Below are positions 19,188 to 45,047 of a stretch of 64,000 bases of DNA, one piece after another; within the stretch, counting starts at the first letter, position 1; the number at the start of each line of letters is the position of its first letter. This DNA is from Scytolyngbya sp. HA4215-MV1 (GTDB lineage Bacteria; Cyanobacteriota; Cyanobacteriia; Leptolyngbyales; Leptolyngbyaceae). The position numbers and the translations under genes were made by a program. The notes beneath the pieces are model-generated. The model saw nothing but the letters and a program-made list of their open reading frames with translations. It ran no database searches and was not told the DNA's origin. The stretch covers positions 428,401 to 492,400 of the forward strand of contig JAHHIA010000002.1 in assembly GCA_019359045.1 (NCBI GenBank), given 5' to 3'.

Positions 19188-20927
19188 ATGACCAAGATTC
19201 TTGTAATTGAAGACGATCGAGGCATTCGGACCATCATCCAAAAGATGCTGCAAGCAGAAGGATATGATGTGATCAGTGCGGTGGATGGTCGCCAAGGGGT
19301 AGAACAAGCAAAAGAACATGAGCCAGATTTAATCATCTGCGACATCATGATGCCAGAGTGCGATGGTCATGAAGTGCTGCAACAGTTGCGCCAAAACCCT
19401 TCTACTGCCATGATCTCGTTCATTTTTCTAAGTGCCAAATCAGAAAAAAATGATTTGCGCCAAGGCATGGAATTAGGCGCAGATGATTATCTCACGAAGC
19501 CGTTTTCGCGCGCCGAGTTACTGGGAGCCATCAGTGCGCGTTTGGCAAAAAGTACGAATATTACACAGCCCTACATCACTGAGATGAAGCGGGCGGCACA
19601 AAGCCTTGGACAAATTGCCTACCGCGATCCCCTCACCAATCTGCCGAACCGCATTCTGCTTTATACCCAACTGCAAACCGCACTCTCGTATGCGAAAAAA
19701 CACGAACAGATTGTTGCGGTTGTTTGTCTCAATCTCGATCGCTTCAAATCCATTAATGCAACGCTTGGACATGCGGCGGGAGACTTTCTACTGCAAACAA
19801 TGGCAAGCCGGTTACAGTCGATCGTCGAGGCTGAAGATACTGTTGCTCGGATTGGCGGAGATGAATTCTGCCTGATTTTGGTCAATCGGGCAAACCAAGC
19901 AGAAATTGAAACGATTACGCAGACGGTTTTTAAGGTATTGTCTGAACCTTATGAACTGAACGAACAAATCATCCATGTTCGTTTTAGCATGGGAATTGCC
20001 CTGTATCCACAAGCGGGGAGTACGCTGGAAAAACTGCTGAATCAGGCAGATATGGCAATGCGCCAAGCCAAAAAGCAGGCATGTGGCTTTCAGTTCTATG
20101 CCACTGAAATGAACTCCTTGATTGCTGAACGAGAATGGCTTGAAACCAATCTGAAACAGGCGCTGGCGCATGAAGAATTGCAACTGTTATACCAACCCCA
20201 AGTCAATCTGATCACGGGGCGCATTATTGGGGCTGAAGCGCTGTTGCGTTGGAATCACCCAGAACAAGGCGTGTTGGCACCCACCAAATTCTTGCCAATT
20301 GCCGAAGAAAATGACTTGATGGCACCGATCGGAGACTGGATTTTGCGAACTGCCTGTACGCAAGCAAAAGCATGGCAATCGGCTAATTTGATGCCCATTC
20401 GCATTGCAGTGAATCTCTCCCCCTACCAGTTCAAACAACCCACCTTGGTTGAAGATATCGCGCAGATTCTCTCAGAAACGGGAATCAGTGCCAATAGTCT
20501 AGTTTTGGAACTCACTGAAGCAGGCATTATGGAGGACATAGATACGACCACTACCACCTTGAATGCGTTGCAAGCCATTGGCGTAATGATTTCGATTGAT
20601 GATTTTGGCACCGGATATTTTTCTTTGGGTTGCCTGAAGCGCTTTTCGATCGATGCGTTGAAAATCGATCATTCCTTTATTAAAAATATTTTGACTGATC
20701 CCCAAGATGCTGCGATCGCAAAAGCCATCGTTGCTATGGCACAAAGCTTGCAGATGAAAGTGATTGCAGAAGGGGTAGAGACCGAAGACCAATATAATTT
20801 ACTACGCCAGAGTGGTTGTCATGCCAGTCAAGGCTATTTGTTTAGCCCACCGCTGCCTGCGGAAGAATTTGAGAAACTATTACACCAAGATAAACGGTTT
20901 CAAAGTAAGCAATTGACTTCTCTCTAG
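19188..20927 (+). CDS. Response regulator with GGDEF and EAL domains
   Basis: A 579-residue regulator of cyclic di-GMP. The receiver domain (1-120) has phospho-acceptor Asp52 (ICDIMMP) and Lys104 (LTKPFS). The diguanylate cyclase domain (about 145-305) keeps an intact GGDEF at 223-227, but the usual RxxD inhibitory site five residues upstream is absent (EAED there). The phosphodiesterase domain (about 315-570) keeps EAL at 350-352 and IDDFGTGY. Both catalytic motifs look intact, so the protein may make, break or switch c-di-GMP. No sensor kinase is adjacent. A link to the PilZ-containing cellulose synthase 10 kb away is only inference. Confidence 0.93.
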   Translation: MTKILVIEDDRGIRTIIQKMLQAEGYDVISAVDGRQGVEQAKEHEPDLIICDIMMPECDGHEVLQQLRQNPSTAMISFIFLSAKSEKNDLRQGMELGADDYLTKPFSRAELLGAISARLAKSTNITQPYITEMKRAAQSLGQIAYRDPLTNLPNRILLYTQLQTALSYAKKHEQIVAVVCLNLDRFKSINATLGHAAGDFLLQTMASRLQSIVEAEDTVARIGGDEFCLILVNRANQAEIETITQTVFKVLSEPYELNEQIIHVRFSMGIALYPQAGSTLEKLLNQADMAMRQAKKQACGFQFYATEMNSLIAEREWLETNLKQALAHEELQLLYQPQVNLITGRIIGAEALLRWNHPEQGVLAPTKFLPIAEENDLMAPIGDWILRTACTQAKAWQSANLMPIRIAVNLSPYQFKQPTLVEDIAQILSETGISANSLVLELTEAGIMEDIDTTTTTLNALQAIGVMISIDDFGTGYFSLGCLKRFSIDALKIDHSFIKNILTDPQDAAIAKAIVAMAQSLQMKVIAEGVETEDQYNLLRQSGCHASQGYLFSPPLPAEEFEKLLHQDKRFQSKQLTSL

Positions 20928-31378: not shown

Positions 31379-33955
31379 TTAACTGTTCAACAGATGTTGA
31401 ATTGCCTGCTTCTGCCGCTCTTGCAGGCGCTTGGGTAGGCGCAGTTCCACGACCACCCAGTTTGCATTGACATCGATAGGGGCGGGTTTTACCTCAACTG
31501 TGTCTACAAAAGCGAGCAAGCGATCGACCGATTCTGCCTCTGGGATTCCTCGAGGCAAACCTGCCAACTGTAAACCGACGATCGGTTTTTTGCGCTGCAT
31601 CACGTCCCAATTAGGCATAGCGGCTGCATCAATGACGGCGCACAAACTTTGACTTGCCGCTTCCACCACCCTTGCCGAATAGCGATGTCCTTCCCAAAAA
31701 AGCTCGATCGGGGTTTGTACTTGTTTTCGTACCTTGCTTCCCTGCATGGGTGAGGGTTCTGCAAAAGAGCGACTGAGACTGCCGAGAATAAACCGCAAAG
31801 ACTCCAGTGGATCATCGACCTGTTGGCGATTTTGGGAATACCACTCTTTCACATCTGAATAGAGCACGAGTGCAAGTGTATCCATCTGGGCTTGGGTTGG
31901 CTCTAGGAAATCAACAATCAGTAGGGTTTGTGTTTCATTCAGAGGAATTCCCCGCACCACTTGTGCAGTCAAAAAGGCACGAGCCCCGTAGTCACCGACC
32001 AATTCTAAATCCACAACATCTGGAATATTGGGCCAGGTGTTTAAAACAATGCGTGCTCCCGTCTCACTAATGTCAATCGTTTGCCCTTTCCAGGTTTTTT
32101 CCTGACTGTAAATCACGACAGGCAGTTCTCGATTGAGGCGATGGGCGCGTCGCAACTGTGGTTGTTCGTAAGCGACCAGCAAGGCTCCTAAGAGCAAAAA
32201 CAGATTAAAGCCACTCCATAAGGCATTGACCAAAACAGCTTCGTAGCTCTCTGGACTCAGAACCAACCAAAAAGGCACCACTATCAAAGAGGCAATGACT
32301 AACCCAGTCACAACGAGCAATGCGCGGGCAGATTCCCAGTCGAAACTGCGTTTGGTCACGGATAATCCTTTGTCCGTTACATTAAAACTGCCCATTTTCG
32401 GATTGATCAGTGCCATCAGGGTGACGGCAGCGGTGTAGAAAGAAAGTGCAAATTCAAACACCTCGTTCCAGAAAGAGAACCGCACCCGCTTAGATGTGAT
32501 GTAGTTGGTGTCCATAGACAGCACAATGTGCGGTAGGGCATACATCAAAATTTCAAGTCCCAAGCCTCGGATGGGATTGATGCCAAAGAGCAAAAAAAGC
32601 GGTGGAGCGATCGCATAGACAATGCGCGGCAACCCATAGAAAAAGCCAAACATGGCAGAAAAATAGCACAGTCGCTGTGGCACTGAGAGATTCAGCTTTC
32701 GACTAAATAGTGGATTCTCGATGCGCAGAATTTGTGCCATACCTCTTGCCCAGCGTACCTGCTGACCCACCAATGCCGAAAATTTTTCGGGAGCTAACCC
32801 GGCAACCATAATTCTGTCGTAGTAAACAGACTCGTAGCCCAGGGAATGCAACCGAAAAGAGGTGTGACAATCTTCGGTGACCGTTTCGACCGCAATACCG
32901 CCAATTTGCAAGACATGTTCTTTGCGAATCACTGCCGCAGAACCACAAAAGAAAGCTGCATTCCAGAAGTCGTTGCCCTTTTGCACAATTTTGTAAAACA
33001 ACTCATTACTCACGGGCACTCGCCCTTTAGTGAGCAAGTTGCGCTCAAACGGGTCGGGGTTGTAGAACCAGTGGGGAGTTTGCACTAGCATCACATTAGG
33101 ATTGTAGAAAAAGCCCACAGTTTCTTGCAGAAAATTTCGTACGGGAATGTGATCACAATCCAAAATCATGACTAAATCCCCACCTGTTCGTTTTAAGGCA
33201 GTATTGATGTTGCCAGCTTTGGCGTGATCGTTGTTATCTCGCGTTAGCATTGTGCAGCCCACTTCGTCACACATCCGCTGAAGTTCTTGTCGTCGTTCAG
33301 GATACTTGCGCCCATCATCTAGAACATAGACGTGCTTCTTCTCAGCGGGATAGTTGAGTGCGATCGCCGCCAGCGCAGTTTTGCGAACAATTTCGATATC
33401 TTCGTTATAAGTTGGAATATAAATATCCACCTTAAACCACTGATCTGGTGGGTAGGTATCTAGAGGAATGGGTTGACGGTCTTTGAGCTTTAATGTCTGA
33501 AAGTACGCCAGCATCAATCCCAGCACTGCATAGACCTCGGCGCAATAGAGCAAAAGGCAGAAAAAACTATTGATCCAACCATCAAAGTTGAGGGTATAGG
33601 CAGTGCGGTAGTAGAGGTAACGGAAGGTGGTGATGAGACTCAGCCACACCATAAAAAGATGTAAATATTCACTGGCAACCGGGTCATTTTGACGATTATC
33701 CAGACGGACAACTACCCAACCGATCGCGATTAAAAAGATTGCGACGAGAGTTTGCTGCCAAATTTTTAGGGGTGTGATGATGAGGGGGACGGCAAGCAAC
33801 AGCAAAAACAGCACCAGCCATAGCAGCTGCCCCTGTCCCCAACTCTGCAAGGCACGATCGAACCCGTTGGGAAGTGTATGAACCAACCAGTCACTCAGTC
33901 GTTGCCAGCGGTTACGGGGAGCAACAGCGCTAGGCTCGATCGCAGGATTGCTCAT
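31379..33955 (-). CDS. bcsA: Cellulose synthase catalytic subunit with PilZ domain
   Basis: An 858-residue inner-membrane processive family-2 glycosyltransferase. Membrane spans flank a cytoplasmic catalytic domain with VLDDG (213-215), LDCDHI (266-268), TED (360-362) and QQVRW (398-402), the D, DxD, TED and QxxRW signature of BcsA. A C-terminal PilZ domain shows the RxxxR region near 602-609 and DISETG (628-633), which bind c-di-GMP in characterised BcsA. It polymerises UDP-glucose into beta-1,4-glucan and threads it through the membrane. The ATG overlaps the bcsB stop by four bases. It is the last gene of the cellulose locus. Confidence 0.95.
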   Translation of the reverse strand: MSNPAIEPSAVAPRNRWQRLSDWLVHTLPNGFDRALQSWGQGQLLWLVLFLLLLAVPLIITPLKIWQQTLVAIFLIAIGWVVVRLDNRQNDPVASEYLHLFMVWLSLITTFRYLYYRTAYTLNFDGWINSFFCLLLYCAEVYAVLGLMLAYFQTLKLKDRQPIPLDTYPPDQWFKVDIYIPTYNEDIEIVRKTALAAIALNYPAEKKHVYVLDDGRKYPERRQELQRMCDEVGCTMLTRDNNDHAKAGNINTALKRTGGDLVMILDCDHIPVRNFLQETVGFFYNPNVMLVQTPHWFYNPDPFERNLLTKGRVPVSNELFYKIVQKGNDFWNAAFFCGSAAVIRKEHVLQIGGIAVETVTEDCHTSFRLHSLGYESVYYDRIMVAGLAPEKFSALVGQQVRWARGMAQILRIENPLFSRKLNLSVPQRLCYFSAMFGFFYGLPRIVYAIAPPLFLLFGINPIRGLGLEILMYALPHIVLSMDTNYITSKRVRFSFWNEVFEFALSFYTAAVTLMALINPKMGSFNVTDKGLSVTKRSFDWESARALLVVTGLVIASLIVVPFWLVLSPESYEAVLVNALWSGFNLFLLLGALLVAYEQPQLRRAHRLNRELPVVIYSQEKTWKGQTIDISETGARIVLNTWPNIPDVVDLELVGDYGARAFLTAQVVRGIPLNETQTLLIVDFLEPTQAQMDTLALVLYSDVKEWYSQNRQQVDDPLESLRFILGSLSRSFAEPSPMQGSKVRKQVQTPIELFWEGHRYSARVVEAASQSLCAVIDAAAMPNWDVMQRKKPIVGLQLAGLPRGIPEAESVDRLLAFVDTVEVKPAPIDVNANWVVVELRLPKRLQERQKQAIQHLLNS

Positions 33956-36483
33956 CGGGAATTTCCTTTAGGGTTTGTCACACGTTTCAGATAGAGCTGA
34001 ACGATGCCATAAAGCATCAGCGTCGAGAAGATAATTCCTGTTGGAAGTAAATACCAGTTTTCTTGCAAGAATCGAGAAATAGCACCTAGTGGAGAAGACT
34101 TCTCGATTCGCGTCTGGCGGTTCGCTTGCTGGAAAAAGCTCAGTGTATAGGCTTCTGGATCATAAGGTGAGGGATCGGGATCGGTCGTATTAATGAGAAC
34201 CGTGTCGTTCTTGAGTTGGAAAAATAATCCATCTTGCTGAAATAAGTAACGTACTTTGTCCAGTCCCGCATTGCTTTGGGCGGTAAGAATGAGCAGCACG
34301 CGATCGCGATTCCAAGGTGAGATGATAGCTTTGACAAGCCCCCCAGTATCGGGCAGCGTTTGGATCTGTACTTGATCCGATCGCCGCGTTAAAAATTGAT
34401 CGAGCTGAAAGCCACCCGTTTGAAACACTTCAGGAAAAGGAAAGCGCTCGCGGGTGCCAATGCCGATGAGTTGGGCGCTGTTGCGGACTTCTTCTGGAAT
34501 CGTGTCTCCTGAATACACTTGCAGTTTCACGGTTTCAGCCGCACTCAGCCGACCAAGCCGCTCACTCAACTGTAAGAGCGTCAGGACCTCTGCATTGGCA
34601 GGTTCACCCGGCAACACGATCGCTGTACTGGAAAGATCTTGAGGAGCTGTGAAGGGGTAGCCTGCCTGCAACAGTTTCAGATCTGGTAGTTGAACAGATT
34701 GATGGCGATTGAGGTTAAAGCTCGTGTCATTGTGTACAGTGCCCCAGAGTTGCTGATCGGTGAGTTTGCCGCAGGTACTCAATTCTCTAGGAATCAAATT
34801 AAAGGCAACCTGGAGTTTAGACGTAGGGGTAATGCGGTTCTCAGGAAAATTGATGTTGAGTGCGTCGTGCGTCGTGCCTTGTTCTGCAGTAAGTTGTTTG
34901 CCAGCGATCGGAGCGCCATCCAACCGCACTTCCAGGGTTGAAAGACGCGGGTTAATCTGCGGGCTATGGCTGTAATAAAGGGTCATGGAACTGCCGCGAT
35001 TGATCTGCTCATCGGGCAGGGCACGAAAATCGAATTCGATCGGAGGTGTGTACGATCCCCGAACCGTGACATCTTGCCAGGGTTGATTATCAGGCGCGCG
35101 CAAATCTTGGAGCTGGAATGAGTTCTTTTCGGGCAAATAGCGAGACCATTGGCGCGGGGGAGGAGGGGGTACATCGGTGACTTGGTCAACTAACACGGCT
35201 GAACCAATCCCCATCTGGCGTTGTTTGGGCTGCAACAAGAACTGGGTGGCTTTGGCAATTCCCTCTGCCCCGTTGCCGCTGATGACCAGGATCGGCACGT
35301 TGCCGTTTTGGGCGATCGTTAACATCAGCAAGCCAACGTCTTCAGGCAGGGGCAGACGGTTGCCATCCACCAGTTGGTTGTTGACGATCGCGTAAGGTAA
35401 CTTCAGCGATTTCAAATCAGGTTGGGAAAGCGGCGTACCGATGATGACCAATTTTTGGCTGGATCGGAGCTGGCTGAGTGACCGAATCGTCTGAGTTTCT
35501 AAAGGATGAAAATCGGCTAGCCGACCTAGTCCGGCGTGAAATCGCGCGGTCGTGGTGAGCCAGGCTGAATCGATTGACTTGGGTAAGAGATAAGTAATCG
35601 AGTTGGCGTCGAGGCTGAGATCATCGAAGAAGGGATACGGATAGCTGCTAAAGTCGAGCGGGATAGCCTTGGGCTGGAAGCCAAAAACGACTTTGGAATC
35701 GGGCAAAACTTCGGTCCACAGAGTTTGGTCACTGGGTGAGGGGCAGCCTTTATCGCTATTGTTTTGCTGCGCCACGATCGCCAATTCGTTATAGTTCTGA
35801 ATCAGGCTGGCAGGAATGTTGACTTCTAATTCACCAATCTGTGATTGCTTGCGATTGAGTGGCACACTGCCCACATTCGTCTTATTGACTTGAACTGTCA
35901 GGTTCGATCGACTTGCCAATAAAGCAGGTGAATGTTGATAGCGAATAAGCGCCTTGACCGTTTTCAGATGCCAGTTTTTGGGGCGGGTAAAGCCAATTCG
36001 GGCTTCGGCGTAAAGACCTTGCAAGTGTAAACGATTGCCTACAACAGGACTACGACTAAACTCCAGCACATACGGAATCAGTTTGGCATTGCTGGGGGTG
36101 GCAGGAGTTTGATTGGCGGGAGTGGCAACCGAAGGGGACGTTGAAGCAGTGCCTGGAGTGGCAGTGGTGGGCGCCGCTACATCAGGAACCGCAGGGGCAG
36201 GGGCAGGGGCAGGGGGAGGAGCAGGGCGATAAACTGGCGCAGGAGGCGGACTGGGAGGAGGAACAAATTGTCGGATCAGTTGATCTTCTTGTTTTTGAAT
36301 GCTGGAATCTGCCTGAGCCTGAATGATTTGAGCTTGGACGGGCTTGACCGGAAATTCAGTTTTTGTCTTGAGGTAAACCGAGATCCCCAAGCCTATAATC
36401 AGGGCGATGATGAAGCGGATCGATCGAGGCAGACAGACAACAATCGATCGCTTGCCAATTCGCTGACGGTTTGCGCCTTTCAT
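33952..36483 (-). CDS. bcsB: Cellulose synthase periplasmic subunit BcsB
   Basis: An 843-residue protein with an N-terminal membrane anchor (about 23-42), a Pro-rich stretch (about 75-110), and a large periplasmic beta-rich body. This body is duplicated (FSRSPVVGNRLHLQG and later FDFRALPDEQINRGSSMTLY units), as in the carbohydrate-binding/flavodoxin-like repeats of BcsB. A C-terminal membrane helix (about 815-835) anchors it beside BcsA. BcsB guides the nascent glucan across the periplasm. Its stop overlaps the bcsA start (ATGA). A 311-base AT-rich gap separates it from the GH8 gene upstream. Confidence 0.93.
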   Translation of the reverse strand: MKGANRQRIGKRSIVVCLPRSIRFIIALIIGLGISVYLKTKTEFPVKPVQAQIIQAQADSSIQKQEDQLIRQFVPPPSPPPAPVYRPAPPPAPAPAPAVPDVAAPTTATPGTASTSPSVATPANQTPATPSNAKLIPYVLEFSRSPVVGNRLHLQGLYAEARIGFTRPKNWHLKTVKALIRYQHSPALLASRSNLTVQVNKTNVGSVPLNRKQSQIGELEVNIPASLIQNYNELAIVAQQNNSDKGCPSPSDQTLWTEVLPDSKVVFGFQPKAIPLDFSSYPYPFFDDLSLDANSITYLLPKSIDSAWLTTTARFHAGLGRLADFHPLETQTIRSLSQLRSSQKLVIIGTPLSQPDLKSLKLPYAIVNNQLVDGNRLPLPEDVGLLMLTIAQNGNVPILVISGNGAEGIAKATQFLLQPKQRQMGIGSAVLVDQVTDVPPPPPRQWSRYLPEKNSFQLQDLRAPDNQPWQDVTVRGSYTPPIEFDFRALPDEQINRGSSMTLYYSHSPQINPRLSTLEVRLDGAPIAGKQLTAEQGTTHDALNINFPENRITPTSKLQVAFNLIPRELSTCGKLTDQQLWGTVHNDTSFNLNRHQSVQLPDLKLLQAGYPFTAPQDLSSTAIVLPGEPANAEVLTLLQLSERLGRLSAAETVKLQVYSGDTIPEEVRNSAQLIGIGTRERFPFPEVFQTGGFQLDQFLTRRSDQVQIQTLPDTGGLVKAIISPWNRDRVLLILTAQSNAGLDKVRYLFQQDGLFFQLKNDTVLINTTDPDPSPYDPEAYTLSFFQQANRQTRIEKSSPLGAISRFLQENWYLLPTGIIFSTLMLYGIVQLYLKRVTNPKGNSR

Positions 36484-36794
36484 GAAGCGATGATAGATAA
36501 ATAAAAAGCAAAGAAACTTTGAGGATGGTCTCTACTAAGTCAGTACGGTTTGGGCTTGAAAACTTCTTTCAATTTTTGCCACCTACGGGGGGTACTGAAA
36601 TCACTCTCATTAAACACTCTATTTTTCAATTCCTTAGAAGAAATCATTTCAACTAAAATTTTCAAGTTCGAGCGTTCATCAACCCTTCTTGTGATTCGTA
36701 GACTCCCAGCAATGTGTACAGTTAATCTCAATCTGCTTTGCAACCCTTTGCCAAGCATCTTAATAGATAAAAAACTCAATGGATAGTCTCAAAT
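36484..36794. other. AT-rich gap inside the cellulose locus
   Basis: These 311 bases between the GH8 and bcsB genes are visibly AT-rich. A 79-codon frame (36540-36779, minus) and one on the opposite strand are not supported by a ribosome-binding site or family resemblance. An internal promoter for bcsBA is plausible. Confidence 0.4.
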
Positions 36795-38114
36795 CTAATT
36801 GGCTACTTTAGGTTTCAGTAACGATGAAACTATGTCAGCAGGCATTAGCCCAAACCAAACCAGATTTTGGGTGTAGTAAGCCGAGTGATTATCCCAGAAA
36901 CCATTGTGATATTGGGGATCGAGTTTTTTCTGGCGAATTTGCTGCGCGATCACCGGGTCAAGTAACCGAAAGGCAAAGTACAGCATTCCATATTGCGAAG
37001 TTGCTTCATAGGCAGCCAGGGGATTCCCTTTGAGATCAATCCGTGCGGGGATTTTTTGTTGGGCTGTCCAAATTTGTCGAGGATAGCGCAAAGACTTTTG
37101 TAAAAATGCCCGTGCCCGGGGTTCCCGAAACCACTCCCAATCTGTGGCAACTCGCCACCAAATTCGATAGGCATCAAACCCATAATCACTGGTGCCGGGA
37201 TTGGAAACGGTGAGTGGTTGCACTGCCCCGGTGTTGAGATCGAGCAATAGCCAATCATTGGGGAGTCCCACCTTTGAGAGGGCAGCAGCTTTTTCTAACA
37301 CTTGATAGCTGCTGTCCACCAGACTGAGCCAGGCATGTTCTGAATCGACCTGAGCAAACAAGCGAAAACAGGCTGGGGAAAAATAGGACGGATTCAGTTG
37401 AAGGGTGGTTTGTTTTTGAAAGGCGATCGCGGGTCCAGGGAGCAAATAACGGTGCGATGGGACACCGCTGTTAGCGGTTGTCACAGTAGACAAATTCCAC
37501 AGGTCGCGCAGTTTAGTTTGGGCAAGGCGGAGGTAGGGTTGGTGCTGCCAGCGTCGGGCTGCCAAGATCAGGGCAGTGATGGCATCAATGTCAGCATCGC
37601 TAGCGAAGTTATTATCCAGAATCAGCCACTCATTCTGACTTTTTTTGCCCCAGTGCCATGCCCATAGACTATCCGTGGGGGTGCCGTTCGTTTGCCGTTT
37701 GAGATTGTTTTCTGCCCAACCCAAGACCCGATCAAAAGTGTCCCGGTCTCCGATCACCACGGCTCGTAGCATAGTGTAAGCCTGCCCTTCTGATGTAGAG
37801 CGATCGTTTGCTTCGCGATCGATGACGCGTCCATCAGCTTGGATAAACTGTTGCCGATAAGCAACCCAACTCTGCTGGAGCAATGCGCTTAATGCGCTTG
37901 CAGACGGTTTTGCTGAGGAGCTAACTGGAGAAGGGATAGCGAACCGTGGTGATTTGGCAGGGACGGTAGCTGGTGGGACAGAGGCAACAGGGGGAACTGA
38001 ACCAGAAGCGTCTTTGCCCCGGGGCATCACAGGCATCGCCTGACAACTCTCTAGCCCTGGCAAAGCCAGAAGACACAAAATGAGGCTGACCGATCGCCAG
38101 GTTGGGGTGCTCAT
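36795..38114 (-). CDS. Family-8 glycosyl hydrolase lipoprotein (BcsZ-like endoglucanase)
   Basis: A 439-residue cellulase. The N-terminus is a lipoprotein signal (LALPGLESC; Cys24 as lipid site), then a Pro/Ser linker (about 30-75). The GH8 domain has the general acid in STSEGQAYTML (Glu109), a substrate-cleft SLWAWHWG, and DNNFASDADID (Asp173/175) with the base region. In enteric systems periplasmic BcsZ trims or releases misassembled glucan and is required for normal cellulose output. A lipoprotein form differs from soluble BcsZ and would sit on a membrane facing the periplasm. It is encoded 39 bases after the TPR gene, consistent with one operon. Confidence 0.9.
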   Translation of the reverse strand: MSTPTWRSVSLILCLLALPGLESCQAMPVMPRGKDASGSVPPVASVPPATVPAKSPRFAIPSPVSSSAKPSASALSALLQQSWVAYRQQFIQADGRVIDREANDRSTSEGQAYTMLRAVVIGDRDTFDRVLGWAENNLKRQTNGTPTDSLWAWHWGKKSQNEWLILDNNFASDADIDAITALILAARRWQHQPYLRLAQTKLRDLWNLSTVTTANSGVPSHRYLLPGPAIAFQKQTTLQLNPSYFSPACFRLFAQVDSEHAWLSLVDSSYQVLEKAAALSKVGLPNDWLLLDLNTGAVQPLTVSNPGTSDYGFDAYRIWWRVATDWEWFREPRARAFLQKSLRYPRQIWTAQQKIPARIDLKGNPLAAYEATSQYGMLYFAFRLLDPVIAQQIRQKKLDPQYHNGFWDNHSAYYTQNLVWFGLMPADIVSSLLKPKVAN

Positions 38115-38153
38115 AAGGAAGGCGGGAAATCAGGAGAAAGGACGAGTTTCAGG

Positions 38154-40463
38154 TTAAAACCGTTCCCAGGTGGGTTGAAAGCCGCGCCGCTGCAAAAAGT
38201 CTTCTTCAATTTTGCGGCGACGCAGCGTGAGGTCGGGGGTGGCTGGGTTACCAAGCGAGGGCTGTTGCAGTTGGTCGATTTGGTTGATCGCTTCAATGGG
38301 GTAGTCTTGGGCAACTCTGACTTCCAGCAGCGATCGCTGAATACTGATGTCGTTGGGGTGAAATGCCAACGCCTGCCGATATAACTCTTCTGCCCGGTTA
38401 AATCGTCGTTGCTGAAAGTTGGTGTCTGCTAGCCCCACCAGCGCCTCTGAGTTACTAGGTTGCAAAGCTAGGGCTGATTGAAAAGAAAATTCTGCGAGTT
38501 TGAAGTCGGAGATCGTCAGTGCCAGCCGTCCCTGTAGAATCTGGGTTTCCGGCGTATTGAACCCCAGGGCCTGGTTGTGAGTGACCACTTGCAGAACGCG
38601 CGCCTTTGCCAGAATTAGGTCATGCTGAGCTAAAACCTGCACCAACCGCAATTGAATCGCGAGAGAACTCGGATCTTCTTCTGCTAAGTAGAGGTAGAGC
38701 GGTTCCAATCGCGGCAGGGGGGGCAATGCTCCGACTAACTGGAACAAAGCAGAGGGTGTATCCGTTGGCGGGTGACTCAACACCCAGGCATTGAGTAACG
38801 CTTCAGCTTCCGTGGCTGAAATGACTTTAGCAGAGTAAGCAATGCTGGCACGCGCCATTTGCAGTCGCAAATCTTGTGGATTCCGAAAAATTAATTGGTC
38901 GTAGAGCCTCAAGGCAGCCCCAGAGTTCCCCCGGGCTGCCTGCAAATCTGCTAATCCTGCGATCGCTCCTTCCAAAATGTCATTGTTGGTCGGGTTTGCC
39001 GTGATGATTGCCTCATATCGGCGGATAGCAGCATCTAGCTGACCTTCTCGTCGTTCAATTTCAGCCGCCAACAGTTGTGGACTGAGATCCCCAGCAGCAG
39101 CAGATGTAGCGGTATAGGCGGCCAACGCATTGCGAGCAGCGGTGAGTTGGTTTTGCTGCAGAAAAATTTGAGCCAGGCGGAAGTGGAGAAACGGTTCCGG
39201 GTTAGGAGTTTGCAATAAGGTTTGATAAATGGGTAAGAATTCTGGTTCTGGTTCAATCCTGACCATGCCTTGAGCGATCGCTCGTCTCTCCATAGGATCG
39301 GTCGGCAAATTTTGCAGCAGGACGCGCAGCCTTTCTCGCAGTTGCGATCGTGACAGATAACCTAGCTGTCGTTCTAGGGCTAGCCACTTTAATTGAATGC
39401 CGCGATCGTTCGGCTGTTGCTGTACCAGTTGGCGATAGAGTTGCAGTGCTAGTGGACGATCCGCAGGGGATGCGCTCAAAACATCGGCAACTTCTTGCAA
39501 GAGGACAGGGTTCGGGTTCGAAGATTGACTCAACGCCTGTCGATAGAGTTGAGTCGCTTCAGCATGCAAAGCGGCATTATTTTCCTTTTGTGAAATTTCG
39601 TTGAGGGTGCGGGCAAGGGGAAGCATTGCCTCTGAACGTCCCCGCAACTCATCTAATACCGCCAGTGCTCTTACACTTTGCTGGGTTGCCAAGTATGCCA
39701 GTGCCAGTTCGACCCGGAGTTGGGTATCGAATTCTTTGTCTGGAGATCGTATCGGCAACTGGGGTTCCAGTAAACTCAGAGCCGCTGCCGGATTACCCGT
39801 TTTTCTCAAGCTGTGGGCATAGGCAATTGCGGCGTAACCAGTGATTTTCTGTCCACTTTGCTGGTAAGCACGAAACAATGACAGGGCTTGAGCATCGTTG
39901 CCACTATTACTGTAAGTAGTTGCGGCTCCCAGCACAACTTCCAGTGCAGGATTGTGTTGCAGTAAAATCTGGTAGTCGGCGATCGCTTCGGCAAATCGCC
40001 CCTGATAACGGTAGAGTAGGGCTCGCTGTGCCAGCGCTTCGAGATCATTCGGTCGCAATTGTAATAACCGATCCAGGGCAGCGATCCCCCTGTTTTGCCA
40101 GTTTAGACGAAAGCCCCCCAACAATCCCACACTTTTTAAGGCTAATAAGTTATCGGGGTCAATTTTTAAGACTTGTTCATAGGTTTGCCAGGCATCTTCA
40201 TCTTGCCCTGCCCGTCGATAGGCGATCGCCAGCCCCAATCGCGCTTCTACAGACTGAGGATACTGCTGGACTGCCTGCTGAAATGCTTTGATTGCGTCCT
40301 TTACCCAGCCTCGCTTGAGCAATAAATAGCCCTGTTGAACTGCCGCAGGCACCTCCTGCACTTGAGCCATTGCAGGGGGTATCCTGTCCCCAATCACCGG
40401 TATCCCTAGCCATAGCCCCCCACAGACCGAAAAAATGACTATCTTCCAGGTGCCCCACTTCAC
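38154..40463 (-). CDS. Periplasmic TPR protein, BcsC-like scaffold without barrel
   Basis: A 769-residue protein starting at GTG (40463), the only start that includes the signal peptide (cleavage likely after PPAMA); the next Met lies in that peptide. A G-rich ribosome-binding site precedes it. Residues about 40-740 are successive TPR units (for example LGLAIAYRRAGQDEDAWQTY and GLADTNFQQRRFNRAEELY). In enteric BcsC such a TPR region is followed by a 16-strand outer-membrane barrel; here the chain ends at RGFQPTWERF with no barrel. The barrel is likely provided by the next gene upstream in the operon, 11 bases away. Confidence 0.8.
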   Translation of the reverse strand: MKWGTWKIVIFSVCGGLWLGIPVIGDRIPPAMAQVQEVPAAVQQGYLLLKRGWVKDAIKAFQQAVQQYPQSVEARLGLAIAYRRAGQDEDAWQTYEQVLKIDPDNLLALKSVGLLGGFRLNWQNRGIAALDRLLQLRPNDLEALAQRALLYRYQGRFAEAIADYQILLQHNPALEVVLGAATTYSNSGNDAQALSLFRAYQQSGQKITGYAAIAYAHSLRKTGNPAAALSLLEPQLPIRSPDKEFDTQLRVELALAYLATQQSVRALAVLDELRGRSEAMLPLARTLNEISQKENNAALHAEATQLYRQALSQSSNPNPVLLQEVADVLSASPADRPLALQLYRQLVQQQPNDRGIQLKWLALERQLGYLSRSQLRERLRVLLQNLPTDPMERRAIAQGMVRIEPEPEFLPIYQTLLQTPNPEPFLHFRLAQIFLQQNQLTAARNALAAYTATSAAAGDLSPQLLAAEIERREGQLDAAIRRYEAIITANPTNNDILEGAIAGLADLQAARGNSGAALRLYDQLIFRNPQDLRLQMARASIAYSAKVISATEAEALLNAWVLSHPPTDTPSALFQLVGALPPLPRLEPLYLYLAEEDPSSLAIQLRLVQVLAQHDLILAKARVLQVVTHNQALGFNTPETQILQGRLALTISDFKLAEFSFQSALALQPSNSEALVGLADTNFQQRRFNRAEELYRQALAFHPNDISIQRSLLEVRVAQDYPIEAINQIDQLQQPSLGNPATPDLTLRRRKIEEDFLQRRGFQPTWERF

Positions 40464-40474
40464 ACGCTTACCCC

Positions 40475-42772
40475 CTACTCTTTCAATCGCCGCACCAGGT
40501 CAAACTCCGTCTTCACTCGGACGCCCAAAATGGTCTCTGAAAAATTCTGAAGTTCTTGCAGCGAAAACCCCAGGCGTAAGTTGGGAAATAGGGCAACGTC
40601 ATAAAAAATTTCCAACACATCTGGAACCGCGTTGCCAGCCTGCTGACGCAAAGTATCGTTTGATAGGTTGCGCCCGTAAGCAATGCCCAGACGATCGTTT
40701 TTGGTCAGCACATCTAAAGCAGTAATGCCAAAGCTGTAAGTCTCTGCCGTCTGGTTAATAGTTAAGTTGTTGTAGCGCCCAAACCGCCCAAATAACCCAA
40801 GCTTGAGATCTGGAAAATAAACTTCGGCGTTCACTCCGTAAGCTTCTTCACGATCGTCGGGTAAAACGCCTGTCCGTCCAGCGCCTCGATCGAGTTGAAA
40901 GATTTCGGAAAAGCTACTTCGGGTGCCGCGATCCAGGTCAGTGGCATAGGTTCCTCTCAGGATAAAATTGCCCGAACGAACTCCTACCTCTCCGGCAAAC
41001 CCATTGAGACTAAAGTCGCTTAGGTTGCGGGCTGAAGAAAAAGCGATCGCCTTAACCTCGACATTGTCAGTAATGCTCCAATTGAGCAGTGCTCCCGGTC
41101 TTGAACTAATTCCGGTAGCAGCCAGTGCCGGATTGGTTTGAAAAATGGCGTTAAAGAAGTGAGTTGCCCCATCCTTGGCAAAGCTATTGCGGTCAAAATA
41201 AGAAGTCAGATCCAATTGCCCGACCATGAGTCTGAGGGTAGGCAAATTGGGGAGGGATGCTGCCAAATACAACTCGTTGACATTCACACCTTCCACTTGC
41301 GAATCAGTAAAGGCTTTGCCAGTCGTCAGGTCTACGGTTCCTGCTGCTAGCAAATTGGGCGTGAGGGGGTAGATGCCTGATATCCGCGCTCGTCCCGATT
41401 CATCTTCTCCTTGAAGCAGGTACACTCCCTGAAACCGCAATGCTGGTTGGGTTAAAGCTGTACTTTGAAGCAGCGTGTTGCCCCTCGCTGTGTTGCCCCT
41501 CGCTAGTCGGTTAGAAGGCTGGACGCTGGCAGCTGTCGCATTGGCAGATGGGGTGGGAATTGCTGGGTTAGGGATTGTCTGACCTGGTAGAAAAATTGGT
41601 GCATTCGTCGGTAACGGTGCACTTGCAGGCGAACTGATTTGCCCAGCCGCCCCGGTTGGATATCCTGGTGGAGGGAGATAAATACCTCCCATTGAAGATT
41701 GGACGATTGCCCCAGGCTGCATCGGTAAGCGATCGGGATAGGTGCTGATCTGCGGGGGTGCCCCATAGAAAATGATGCCAGGAGCAACCGTGCCACTGCC
41801 CGAAGGCTGGACATTTCCGATCGACGGTTGTAAAGGGATGTTCGTAGGATAAGCACCAGGCTGGAGAACACTAGGTGGATAAAGGGAATATCCACTTGCT
41901 TGAGGGAGTCCATAGAAAGGATAAGCAGGATAAGCTCCGATGGGATACCCCGTTCCGGCTGGGGCAGGCAAGGCAGGTAAGGGCGAACCATATCCTGAGG
42001 ACGGTAGACCCCCAGGATAAATCACATACACTACGATTCCAGGCTGAACGTATCCTCCTGTCTGCGCGTAAGGATAGGGTTGGGCATATCCGCCCGGTTG
42101 GACATACCCCCCTGGCTGAACGTATCCTCCAGGCGGAATATAGGGATAGACCGGAGAAACAGGATAAGAATTGGTAGGATAAGGCGGACTGGGTATGCTA
42201 CCCGGAGCAGGAATCATGCCTGATCCAGCCCCATAGTCAGAGGCATAGGACGGCACTGAAGGGGTTACATAAGGAGGCGTTTGTGGGGATATCGGCGGTA
42301 CAAGATTCGAAGGAAAAGCACTTCCCCCATTGCCAGGCGGGGGGGGAGTACCGGGTCCGCCAAGCTGAGGGGGAAAGGGTACAGGTACAACCAGTTGGGA
42401 CGTGACCGGAGAACTAGAGCACCCGATCGCAGTGCAAGTCAGTTGCACTGCAGATTCAGTCTGTGCCATCGCAGGCAAATTTACTGGCTCAATGTCATCT
42501 CTGTTCTGAATCGCTTTGGCAGAATTGGCAGATTGTGGCAATGCTGGTAAAGGGGCACCTGCGATCGGCGCAACCAACGTGGGAGAGGGAGCGGTTGAAG
42601 ACGCGGCAATGACATTCGATGCGGTTTCTTCAGCTGCGCCTCGAGCGGGCACCGCCCCAACAGGTTTACTTCCGATGAGACCCAGAAAACATAGGATAGA
42701 AGCGGCACCCAGGCAGTACCGACCTGAACTTAAACATCGGACTGAGAACAAGGCTGGAGCTAAATTCGGCAT
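40475..42772 (-). CDS. Outer-membrane beta-barrel protein with Pro/Gly/Tyr-rich domain
   Basis: A 765-residue protein from the ATG at 42772 (a TTG at 42793 adds seven). A signal peptide (about 20-45) is followed by a low-complexity region (about 120-430) rich in Pro, Gly, Tyr and Ser, including repeated PGGYVQ units. The last about 330 residues form alternating beta-strands (RFQGVYLLQGEDESGRARIS, GLFGRFGRYNNLTIN) ending in FDLVRRLKE, resembling OprB-like porin or exopolysaccharide-export barrels. I cannot name a family with certainty. It heads the cellulose operon, next to a BcsC-like TPR protein lacking a barrel, so a role as the glucan exit channel is a strong inference but unproven. Confidence 0.65.
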   Translation of the reverse strand: MPNLAPALFSVRCLSSGRYCLGAASILCFLGLIGSKPVGAVPARGAAEETASNVIAASSTAPSPTLVAPIAGAPLPALPQSANSAKAIQNRDDIEPVNLPAMAQTESAVQLTCTAIGCSSSPVTSQLVVPVPFPPQLGGPGTPPPPGNGGSAFPSNLVPPISPQTPPYVTPSVPSYASDYGAGSGMIPAPGSIPSPPYPTNSYPVSPVYPYIPPGGYVQPGGYVQPGGYAQPYPYAQTGGYVQPGIVVYVIYPGGLPSSGYGSPLPALPAPAGTGYPIGAYPAYPFYGLPQASGYSLYPPSVLQPGAYPTNIPLQPSIGNVQPSGSGTVAPGIIFYGAPPQISTYPDRLPMQPGAIVQSSMGGIYLPPPGYPTGAAGQISSPASAPLPTNAPIFLPGQTIPNPAIPTPSANATAASVQPSNRLARGNTARGNTLLQSTALTQPALRFQGVYLLQGEDESGRARISGIYPLTPNLLAAGTVDLTTGKAFTDSQVEGVNVNELYLAASLPNLPTLRLMVGQLDLTSYFDRNSFAKDGATHFFNAIFQTNPALAATGISSRPGALLNWSITDNVEVKAIAFSSARNLSDFSLNGFAGEVGVRSGNFILRGTYATDLDRGTRSSFSEIFQLDRGAGRTGVLPDDREEAYGVNAEVYFPDLKLGLFGRFGRYNNLTINQTAETYSFGITALDVLTKNDRLGIAYGRNLSNDTLRQQAGNAVPDVLEIFYDVALFPNLRLGFSLQELQNFSETILGVRVKTEFDLVRRLKE

Positions 42773-43169
42773 AATTGAAACGATTTTCCTCAATCCATTT
42801 TGATGCGTAAAACCGAATTAAACCGCATCGTCTGCTTTATTCTGCTTGGCTGACCTGATTGCGTTTAGAAGCGTTAAGATGCCCTTCGCGCCTATCTCAC
42901 AGTCCATTCGTTTAATGGCAAGTGTCATTCATTTTTTGTTTATTGAACGGATGAATGGTTTCAGTTCGATAATAGCCTTAGCATAATTGATTAAAAGGAC
43001 CCCCTCGCAGTTGGATATTTTAACCAGCTACAAGTGTTTCGCGATCGTTGAGTAAGTTACCTGTCTTGCCAGATCCTTCATTGAGAACAGTCCCTTGAAA
43101 AGCTTTGCCCTACGCTGCTCTTTTGCCTTTAGATTAAAGCAGAGTTTTCTTACCGCTTCCAACAGTGCA
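42773..43169. other. Divergent intergenic region upstream of the cellulose locus
   Basis: These 397 bases carry the promoter of the cellulose operon (minus) and of the hypothetical gene at 43170 (plus). An AT-rich patch lies at about 42920-42990. No specific operator was recognised. Confidence 0.4.
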
Positions 43170-43877
43170 ATGATGATGCAACGGCTTATCGGTTGGAGCC
43201 TATTGGTTGGGATCAATTCTGCCTGTAGTTTCAATCGTTCCACCCCGATCGCCATGTCTCTACAAGTGGAACCGACTGGCAGACCAGGCATCTATCAAGT
43301 CTCTGGCAGAACTAACCTGCCGGATCATAGCCGCCTCTCTGTGTTGGGGGTTCGCTACTGGCAACCTACAGCGAATTTTTCGCCCCTGCAACCTGCTAAT
43401 GCGAATTATGCGATTTTGGCAAGGGATCATGTGGCTGTGAACCAGGGACGATGGGAGACACGTCTCAACCTGTGGCAAATTGCCCCCGATGGACGCTATC
43501 AGGAGTCCTGGCAACTTCAGCATCTGATTTCTATGCGATCGGTAGAAGCCGCCAGTCAAGTTACATTTCTAGCCATTTTTGAATTAGAGCTTCAGCAACA
43601 ATCCATCACTCAACGGTTGAATCAGCAAGTTCTTACCCCGCCGCTGCTGCGCTTTACCTCATTGGGGCAACCCTATCTGCAAGTCAGCCAAACCTTGCCC
43701 ATTAGTCTACCGCTCGGCAAAACAACACCTCCGTCAATCGCAGCAGTTGACATCAATGGTGGCTGGGGCAACCGCTCAACCCTGGTCTCGGAACCGCGCT
43801 CTGGCACTGTAATGGTTTCTCCTCCTAAAGAGAAACAAACTAATGCCCCCTTGCCAACGGCTGCTTTTGTACGCTAA
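43170..43877 (+). CDS. Hypothetical exported protein
   Basis: A 235-residue protein from the first of three consecutive ATG codons (43170). The upstream in-frame ATG at 43095 would give a longer basic N-terminus. It starts with a hydrophobic segment ending in a Cys (LLVGINSACSF), resembling a lipoprotein or secreted signal, though the lipobox is not ideal. The mature part has beta-rich repeats and an acidic/Pro-rich end. I do not recognise a family. It diverges from the cellulose operon and may be an envelope component. Confidence 0.6.
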   Translation: MMMQRLIGWSLLVGINSACSFNRSTPIAMSLQVEPTGRPGIYQVSGRTNLPDHSRLSVLGVRYWQPTANFSPLQPANANYAILARDHVAVNQGRWETRLNLWQIAPDGRYQESWQLQHLISMRSVEAASQVTFLAIFELELQQQSITQRLNQQVLTPPLLRFTSLGQPYLQVSQTLPISLPLGKTTPPSIAAVDINGGWGNRSTLVSEPRSGTVMVSPPKEKQTNAPLPTAAFVR

Positions 43878-43991: not shown

Positions 43992-45047
43992 TCAAGAAAC
44001 CAATGCTTTTTGTTGCTGCATCCAGTCAAGCTCCAGAACTTGCAGGCGATGATACAGTTGCTTGATCACACTGTTAGAACAGTCAACTTTCGAGAAATCC
44101 ATTTCATCTGCAAGCATTGGCTCTGCGGCAACGTGCAGTGAATTCTGCAAATCCTCAATTTGACTTGAGATTTGAATGATTTGGTTTTGCAACTCGTTCA
44201 TCCGCATCAGCATCTTGGTTCTGGTTGCAGTCGCTTGGCGATGATGAGTTGAGTAGCTAGTATAAGTCGGTAATACAGGACTGGAAGCCTTCTGCTCAAT
44301 CGGTTGCTCAGGTGATGGGAAGGACTGTGGTGCTGGCACAAATGCTGGGGTTGGTGGCTCTTGCGATCGCTGAGGTGCAGAAGAGGCAGCCACCTGCTCA
44401 CTTTGCAACATTGCCATCAAAGATTTCAACATCTCCAGTGAAAATTCAGTTGGTATGGAGGAGGGAGCAGCCACGGGGCTGGGTTGTACAGGTGCGGGAG
44501 ATACCAGAGCTTGCTCTAAATTGGGTGAGGTTGCGACGGATACGGCAGCGGTAACCTCATAAGGGGCGATCGGCTCAGGGAGCATAGCCGCCTGGGGGGA
44601 TACGGGCAGAACGGTTGGAGCAGGAGTTTCCGAAACTGATGCAACTGTATCGGCGAGTTTATCTGTGGCTTTAGGTTCTAAGAAAGCATTAAACCCAGTT
44701 GACGTGAGATAGGACTCCGACAGGCGAATGTCATCAATTAGAGTTGCTTTTTCTTTTAGCTCTTGCTGTAGCTCAAGTAGACGTGTCTCAATTTGAGTGG
44801 ACTTGTGTGCCGATCTTCGCCACTCTGAAACCGATAAACTAACAGCGCCTACCCCAAGACTAACCAGTCCAGCGATGCCGAGATAAGGGGTTGCAATGTC
44901 TTTCAACCGACCAGTAAAAATATTCTCTCTTTGAAATTCAATATTAACCGAGTTTGAGCCAAGCGCTGCCAATGGCAAGGTCAAACAAGAGAAGACCGCA
45001 CAAGACAATAGGGTAGATGGCAAAAAAGAACCTTTCATAGCACTCAA
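43992..45047 (-). CDS. Hypothetical membrane-anchored coiled-coil protein
   Basis: A 351-residue protein with an N-terminal signal or membrane segment and a second hydrophobic span (about 52-72). A short coiled coil follows (about 80-105, LLELQQELKEKATLIDD), then a long Pro/Ala/Ser-rich linker (about 125-275) and a helical C-terminus (RMNELQNQIIQISSQIEDL and a final helix). Such layouts are common in cyanobacterial envelope proteins of unknown role. I do not recognise a named family. Confidence 0.6.
   Translation of the reverse strand: MSAMKGSFLPSTLLSCAVFSCLTLPLAALGSNSVNIEFQRENIFTGRLKDIATPYLGIAGLVSLGVGAVSLSVSEWRRSAHKSTQIETRLLELQQELKEKATLIDDIRLSESYLTSTGFNAFLEPKATDKLADTVASVSETPAPTVLPVSPQAAMLPEPIAPYEVTAAVSVATSPNLEQALVSPAPVQPSPVAAPSSIPTEFSLEMLKSLMAMLQSEQVAASSAPQRSQEPPTPAFVPAPQSFPSPEQPIEQKASSPVLPTYTSYSTHHRQATATRTKMLMRMNELQNQIIQISSQIEDLQNSLHVAAEPMLADEMDFSKVDCSNSVIKQLYHRLQVLELDWMQQQKALVS

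Follow-up and report, generated by a model that had tools for sequence, protein, structure and literature searches.

Surveys of cellulose synthesis have described cyanobacteria as being without the BcsC_C domain and as rarely carrying BcsB, and they leave the crossing of cellulose through the outer membrane of these organisms unexplained (PMC4594306, PMC12430437). Thermosynechococcus is among the cyanobacteria that use the Xcs system, made up of XcsA, an HlyD-like XcsB, the endoglucanase XcsC and TolC (PMC12430437). A TPR protein that acts only as a scaffold, BcsK, is known from the type III Bcs systems of Agrobacterium and Shinella (PMC11470070, PMC9012009).

We analysed a 64,000-nucleotide stretch of the genome of Scytolyngbya sp. 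HA4215-MV1 (hereafter the window), in which an initial annotation had described five minus-strand genes in the order barrel protein, TPR protein, GH8 protein, BcsB and BcsA. ORF coordinates and domain scans bear out this order and its spacing: of the genes, here P, K, Z, B and A, P and K lie 11 bases apart, K and Z 39, and Z and B 311, while B and A overlap by 4 bases (Table 1; P, K, W and X are labels of this analysis). The companion claim, that the TPR protein has no barrel and the barrel protein no TPRs, agrees with domain scans and structure models. Domains, folds, the family of P, conserved gene order, co-occurrence and co-inheritance were all computed. In the open-access literature on OprB and the export of cyanobacterial cellulose, and on bcsB in Nostoc, we found no description of this layout.

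Table 1 Features of the cellulose locus and its upstream flank (window coordinates).
Feature	Position	Strand	Description
A (BcsA)	31379..33955	-	Cellulose synthase with PilZ c-di-GMP domain
B (BcsB)	33952..36483	-	PF03170; periplasmic co-polymerase with C-terminal membrane helix
Z (GH8 endoglucanase, BcsZ-like)	36795..38114	-	PF01270 and active-site motifs
K (TPR scaffold gene)	38154..40463	-	Secreted, no barrel; ORF call, domain scan, structure model
K conserved C-terminal tail	38157..38204	-	..FLQRRGFQPTWERF; consensus FLxRRGFQPxWERY
P (barrel gene)	40475..42793	-	Signal peptide, Pro/Gly-rich linker and 16-strand OprB-family outer-membrane barrel; ORF call
P OprB-type barrel domain	40478..41488	-	337 aa; PF04966; 16 strands predicted
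P most conserved stretch	41123..41206	-	TSYFDRNSFAKDGATHFFN-FQTNPAL, between strands 5 and 6; alignment and model
P low-complexity linker	41489..42688	-	Some 390 aa with 21% Pro and 3.6% charged residues; SLH domain absent
Alternative starts of P	42793 or 42772		TTG at 42793 gives 772 aa; 42772 (start in the initial annotation) gives 765 aa
W	43095..43877	+	Divergently transcribed lipoprotein, no known family; upstream of P
X	43992..45047	-	Membrane/coiled-coil protein with hydrophobic segments at its N terminus; no known family; upstream of P, on the operon's strand

The synthase core

BcsA reaches 706.9 bits with TIGR03030, for which the NCBIfam equivalog cut-off is 699.1 bits, and a domain scan finds its PilZ domain at 50.9. 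Its catalytic and c-di-GMP motifs are all present (DDG, DCD, TED, QQVRW, RRAHR and DISETG). BcsB matches PF03170 with 318 bits, and the GH8 protein, which retains its active-site motifs, matches PF01270 with 151 bits. The locus thus has the BcsA equivalog with PilZ and the BcsB by which a Bcs synthase is recognized and, at the level of sequence, the synthase core is intact.

The GH8 gene is missing from a number of related loci that keep both barrel and TPR genes (L062, L066, L067, L070, L071, L137, L148, L154 and others). We considered whether all GH8-less loci are monophyletic and rejected this, as the trees did not show it.

A response regulator that combines a GGDEF and an EAL domain (19188-20927, plus strand) is encoded some 10 kb away from bcs and may either supply or consume c-di-GMP. 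At 190-2334 on the minus strand the window encodes a protein with a DUF1565/beta-helix region and several SLH domains. The genome has at least two more GT2 genes that resemble cellulose synthase, of 759 aa (locus L284, 10476-12755) and 675 aa (L285 region, G000:C17). Near the former is an SLH-OprB porin gene (L284, 6518-8158), whose product is the nearest paralogue of P within this genome.

P is an OprB-family barrel

Full-length P returned no Pfam match and nothing useful from the PDB, because a low-complexity Pro/Gly-rich stretch makes up more than half of the protein. The length of this linker varies from 72 to 860 aa across 97 orthologues. When P was trimmed to its barrel domain before the Pfam scan a family assignment was obtained, with a score of 33.5 bits against PF04966 (gathering cut-off 22.9). 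PF04966 is also matched by 20 of 34 homologues, and all 34 barrel homologues scanned match only OprB or Porin_4 in Pfam; the alginate-export domain PF13372 is not among the Pfam matches at E values up to 1. Domain scans detected no TPR in P. Nor did they detect an SLH domain, whether in P or in eight homologues of full or nearly full length.

Structure prediction of the two proteins had been proposed with the initial annotation. AlphaFold2, run with 34 homologues, gives P a barrel of 16 strands (mean pLDDT 85). The solved structure nearest to this model is Pseudomonas putida OprB (Foldseek E value 4.5e-13); superposition on 4gey gives a Z score of 27.5 and an RMSD of 2.8 over 296 residues, and the next chain scores 22.7. 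BcsC was not among the matches listed for these fold searches, which by itself excludes nothing. In profile comparisons P aligns with nine OprB-type proteins of the same genome at 96% probability, while hhalign of the P barrel against E. coli BcsC gives 0.2%, that is, no detectable similarity. A profile search of the window's genome did not find BcsC_C (PF05420), and about a dozen other OprB matches are present in it. P belongs to the OprB carbohydrate-porin family.

OprB porins, whose family is named as carbohydrate-selective, normally serve sugar uptake and have narrow pores. Porins carry a constriction loop at the position that corresponds to the region between strands 5 and 6 of P. The model places the TSYFDRNSFAKDGATHFFN-FQTNPAL stretch at this position, and it may therefore act as such a loop.

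K is a TPR protein without a barrel

The domain scan of K detects TPR families only and no BcsC_C. The structure predicted for it is a solenoid, helical throughout and without any barrel (pLDDT 89), and an Ala-Met-Ala signal site is apparent by eye. Five residues of the C-terminal tail (L757, R760, G761, P764 and W766) are invariant in 33 orthologues, which makes the tail a candidate docking motif. Identification of K as BcsC or BcsK from TPR similarity was rejected, as such matches are generic for TPRs and not diagnostic.

Gene order and distribution

A survey of the five-gene order across cyanobacteria, also proposed with the initial annotation, found the order to be widely kept. We examined the neighbourhoods of 58 BcsB loci and of the best 80 of 189 barrel loci, all of which (the best 80) are cyanobacterial. 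The full order P-K-Z-B-A is present in 58 of these 80, and many of the others end at a contig edge. P is followed by K, or otherwise paired with it, in 77 of the best 80. The P-K junction is the tightest of the locus, with a median of -4 bases and 67 of 77 instances within 50 bases, and none of 140 related loci showed P and K fused into one gene. The layout is not a product of chance: it recurs in several cyanobacterial families.

Co-occurrence was assessed in 42 genomes of the window's family and in a sample of 386 genomes taken evenly across the phylum. BcsB is encoded by 28 of the 42 family genomes, and strong P orthologues (E<1e-50) are found in exactly those 28; weaker matches in the family (E above 1e-8) are other porins. 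In the phylum sample, 15 genomes have full-length BcsB, all from the window's class, and it is exactly these that have strong P orthologues (E<1e-120), with 0 of the 371 others. Besides the 15, one genome of another class has two divergent BcsB genes and five have weak partial BcsB matches. Two-sided Fisher tests of P-BcsB co-occurrence give p values of 2.7e-27 and 1.9e-11 with genomes treated as independent despite shared ancestry; because genomes of one lineage are not independent, these values overstate significance. Presence and absence alternate within several families: the positives come from at least 7 families, and relatives lacking bcsB are found in the same ones. BcsC_C scored above its cut-off in 2 of the 386 phylum-sample genomes. 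The genes have also been inherited together, as second copies of the locus, present in five genomes, form one clade with support 1.0 in each of the P, K, B and A trees.

A few loci depart from the common arrangement. These contain K-B-A (L147), B-A (L078), BcsB alone (L043) or P-K only (L258), or are decaying (L232); the genomes of L147, L078 and L043 each carry P elsewhere. In the decaying locus, from Nostoc indistinguendum (L232, 9383-15624), the TPR protein and BcsB are fused in one ORF, BcsA is broken in two and GH8 was not found.

Divergent BcsB-like genes were observed elsewhere as well. Two small-genome cyanobacteria (G124 and G216) have one of about 650 aa beside a GT2 of about 765 aa (L155, 9013-13291; L156, 6562-10878), with no relatives of P or K nearby; these pairs are possibly another synthase type. 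In a member of another class of the phylum (G382; L141, 8195-12936) there are two in tandem, and no BcsA relative was detected nearby.

Two further genes share the bcsB distribution

The initial annotation had treated the locus as a unit of five genes, and this should probably be revised to seven. W, for which a Pfam scan returned no family, has an invariant Cys at a lipobox-like position in the alignment. It is present in 28 of 28 bcsB genomes of the family and 0 of 14 others, and in 15 of 15 bcsB genomes of the phylum sample and 0 of 371 others, apart from one marginal match (E value 8e-4). X is found in 27 of 28 bcsB genomes of the family and 0 of 14 others; in a 273-genome phylum sample it has 10 matches, unlinked copies included, all in bcsB genomes. 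Linkage alone does not explain this pattern because several genomes carry W or X far from bcs: W is about 35 kb away in G015, and X more than 1.7 Mb away in G213. Since W and X share the phyletic pattern of bcsB even when unlinked, the system probably comprises seven genes, with W as a probable sixth and X as a probable seventh component. Both are probably dedicated partners in assembly or anchoring.

A model for export

We consider it likely that the locus encodes a complete c-di-GMP-regulated Bcs system in which P and K form the outer-membrane export module and P is the exit for the glucan. BcsA would polymerize and extrude the glucan, which BcsB would take over in the periplasm. K would serve as a periplasm-spanning scaffold that binds P, and the chain would leave through P, an OprB-family barrel that has lost the SLH anchor and has a Pro-rich periplasmic linker in its place. 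The GH8 enzyme would trim chains in the periplasm and be dispensable in some copies. Some observations count against this model: the most conserved part of P is at the constriction-loop position and OprB pores are narrow, a few copies of the locus (L147, L078 and L043) lack P, and the TPR match to BcsC is a generic one.

In the main alternative P would serve uptake, as a porin for cello-oligosaccharides that the GH8 enzyme or other organisms set free, and cellulose would exit elsewhere. The score above the OprB cut-off, the closest fold and the retained loop motif all accord with this. By the initial annotation's own test, its reading would fall if the barrel were a specific sugar or ion porin whose orthologues lie apart from bcsAB; the fold is indeed that of a sugar porin, but all strong orthologues are in bcsB genomes, and the distribution of P matches that of BcsB exactly. 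P is also kept where GH8 is absent and is translationally coupled to the K gene, there is no sugar importer among the neighbouring proteins scanned, and the genome already has its dozen or so other OprB matches while having no BcsC_C barrel. We therefore regard uptake as unlikely.

P might instead hold K in position, as an outer-membrane protein with a structural or anchoring role, the pore being a general one such as TolC, as proposed for Xcs. In the Thermosynechococcus Xcs model the TolC-type pore is encoded apart from the synthase genes (PMC12430437); the genome studied here has many general porins, and some bcs copies have no linked P. Against this stands the exact co-occurrence of P and BcsB, and no HlyD-type adaptor that could join BcsAB to TolC was found at the locus. 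We judge this explanation very unlikely.

An origin of P and K by the splitting of an ancestral BcsC, which the equal strand number reported for BcsC and the adjacency of the two genes could suggest, was rejected on the profile comparisons, the Pfam family of P and the gene order (barrel-TPR, the reverse of the TPR-barrel domain order of BcsC), and with no P-K fusion in 140 loci we give it almost no credence.

Replacement of BcsC by P and K together is thus the best reading, because the two are separate, are the most tightly coupled pair of the locus and co-occur with bcsAB, with no HlyD adaptor at the locus. At the genome level they accompany bcsAB without exception. Comparative genomics lends good support to the joint function initially proposed; the description of the pair as a split BcsC does not stand. 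As for the wider proposal, that this is a seven-gene type of cellulose secretion in which an OprB nutrient porin has been recruited as a dedicated, TPR-coupled export channel with W and X as partners, we find the prospects evenly balanced.

For cyanobacteria that carry BcsB, the analysis puts forward a specific candidate for the channel and another for the scaffold, together with two new candidate components, and makes the question of outer-membrane crossing directly testable. If P does conduct cellulose, a porin family of the import type would have been turned into a polymer exporter.

Comparison with known systems

The locus is a variant of the Bcs system and not a categorically new system. 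The initial annotation had called its layout distinct from both enteric Bcs and Xcs, and it does differ from both; a scaffold-only TPR protein was, however, already known in BcsK.

The type II system of E. coli (BcsA-BcsB-BcsZ-BcsC) resembles it in having BcsA with PilZ, BcsB, GH8, periplasmic TPRs and a 16-strand barrel. The TPRs and barrel that enteric BcsC holds in one polypeptide are here encoded by two separate ORFs, the barrel is OprB-type and not BcsC_C, and there are two extra unannotated genes. Among the locus proteins scanned there were no matches to BcsE, F, G, Q or R.

With Xcs the locus shares a cyanobacterial cellulose synthase with PilZ and an endoglucanase, but it has a true BcsB, and its putative export module is a TPR protein with a porin-type barrel. 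A domain scan of nine proteins encoded in and around the locus gave no match to HlyD, a further difference from Xcs.

The alginate proteins AlgK and AlgE likewise pair a separate TPR-type scaffold with an outer-membrane barrel for a synthase-dependent polysaccharide. K differs from AlgK in its classical TPRs and in not being a lipoprotein, and P is OprB-like with no match to PF13372. In barrel family and fold P resembles the cyanobacterial SLH-OprB porins of the SomA type, an ordinary example of which is the 546-aa protein of locus L284, but P lacks SLH, has the Pro-rich linker and is found only alongside bcsB.

In the type III Bcs systems, too, BcsC is replaced by a periplasmic scaffold that consists of TPRs alone (PMC11470070, PMC9012009), and by its architecture K is a scaffold of this kind. 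Those papers assign no outer-membrane pore, whereas at the present locus the TPR gene is coupled to one for a dedicated barrel of the OprB family.
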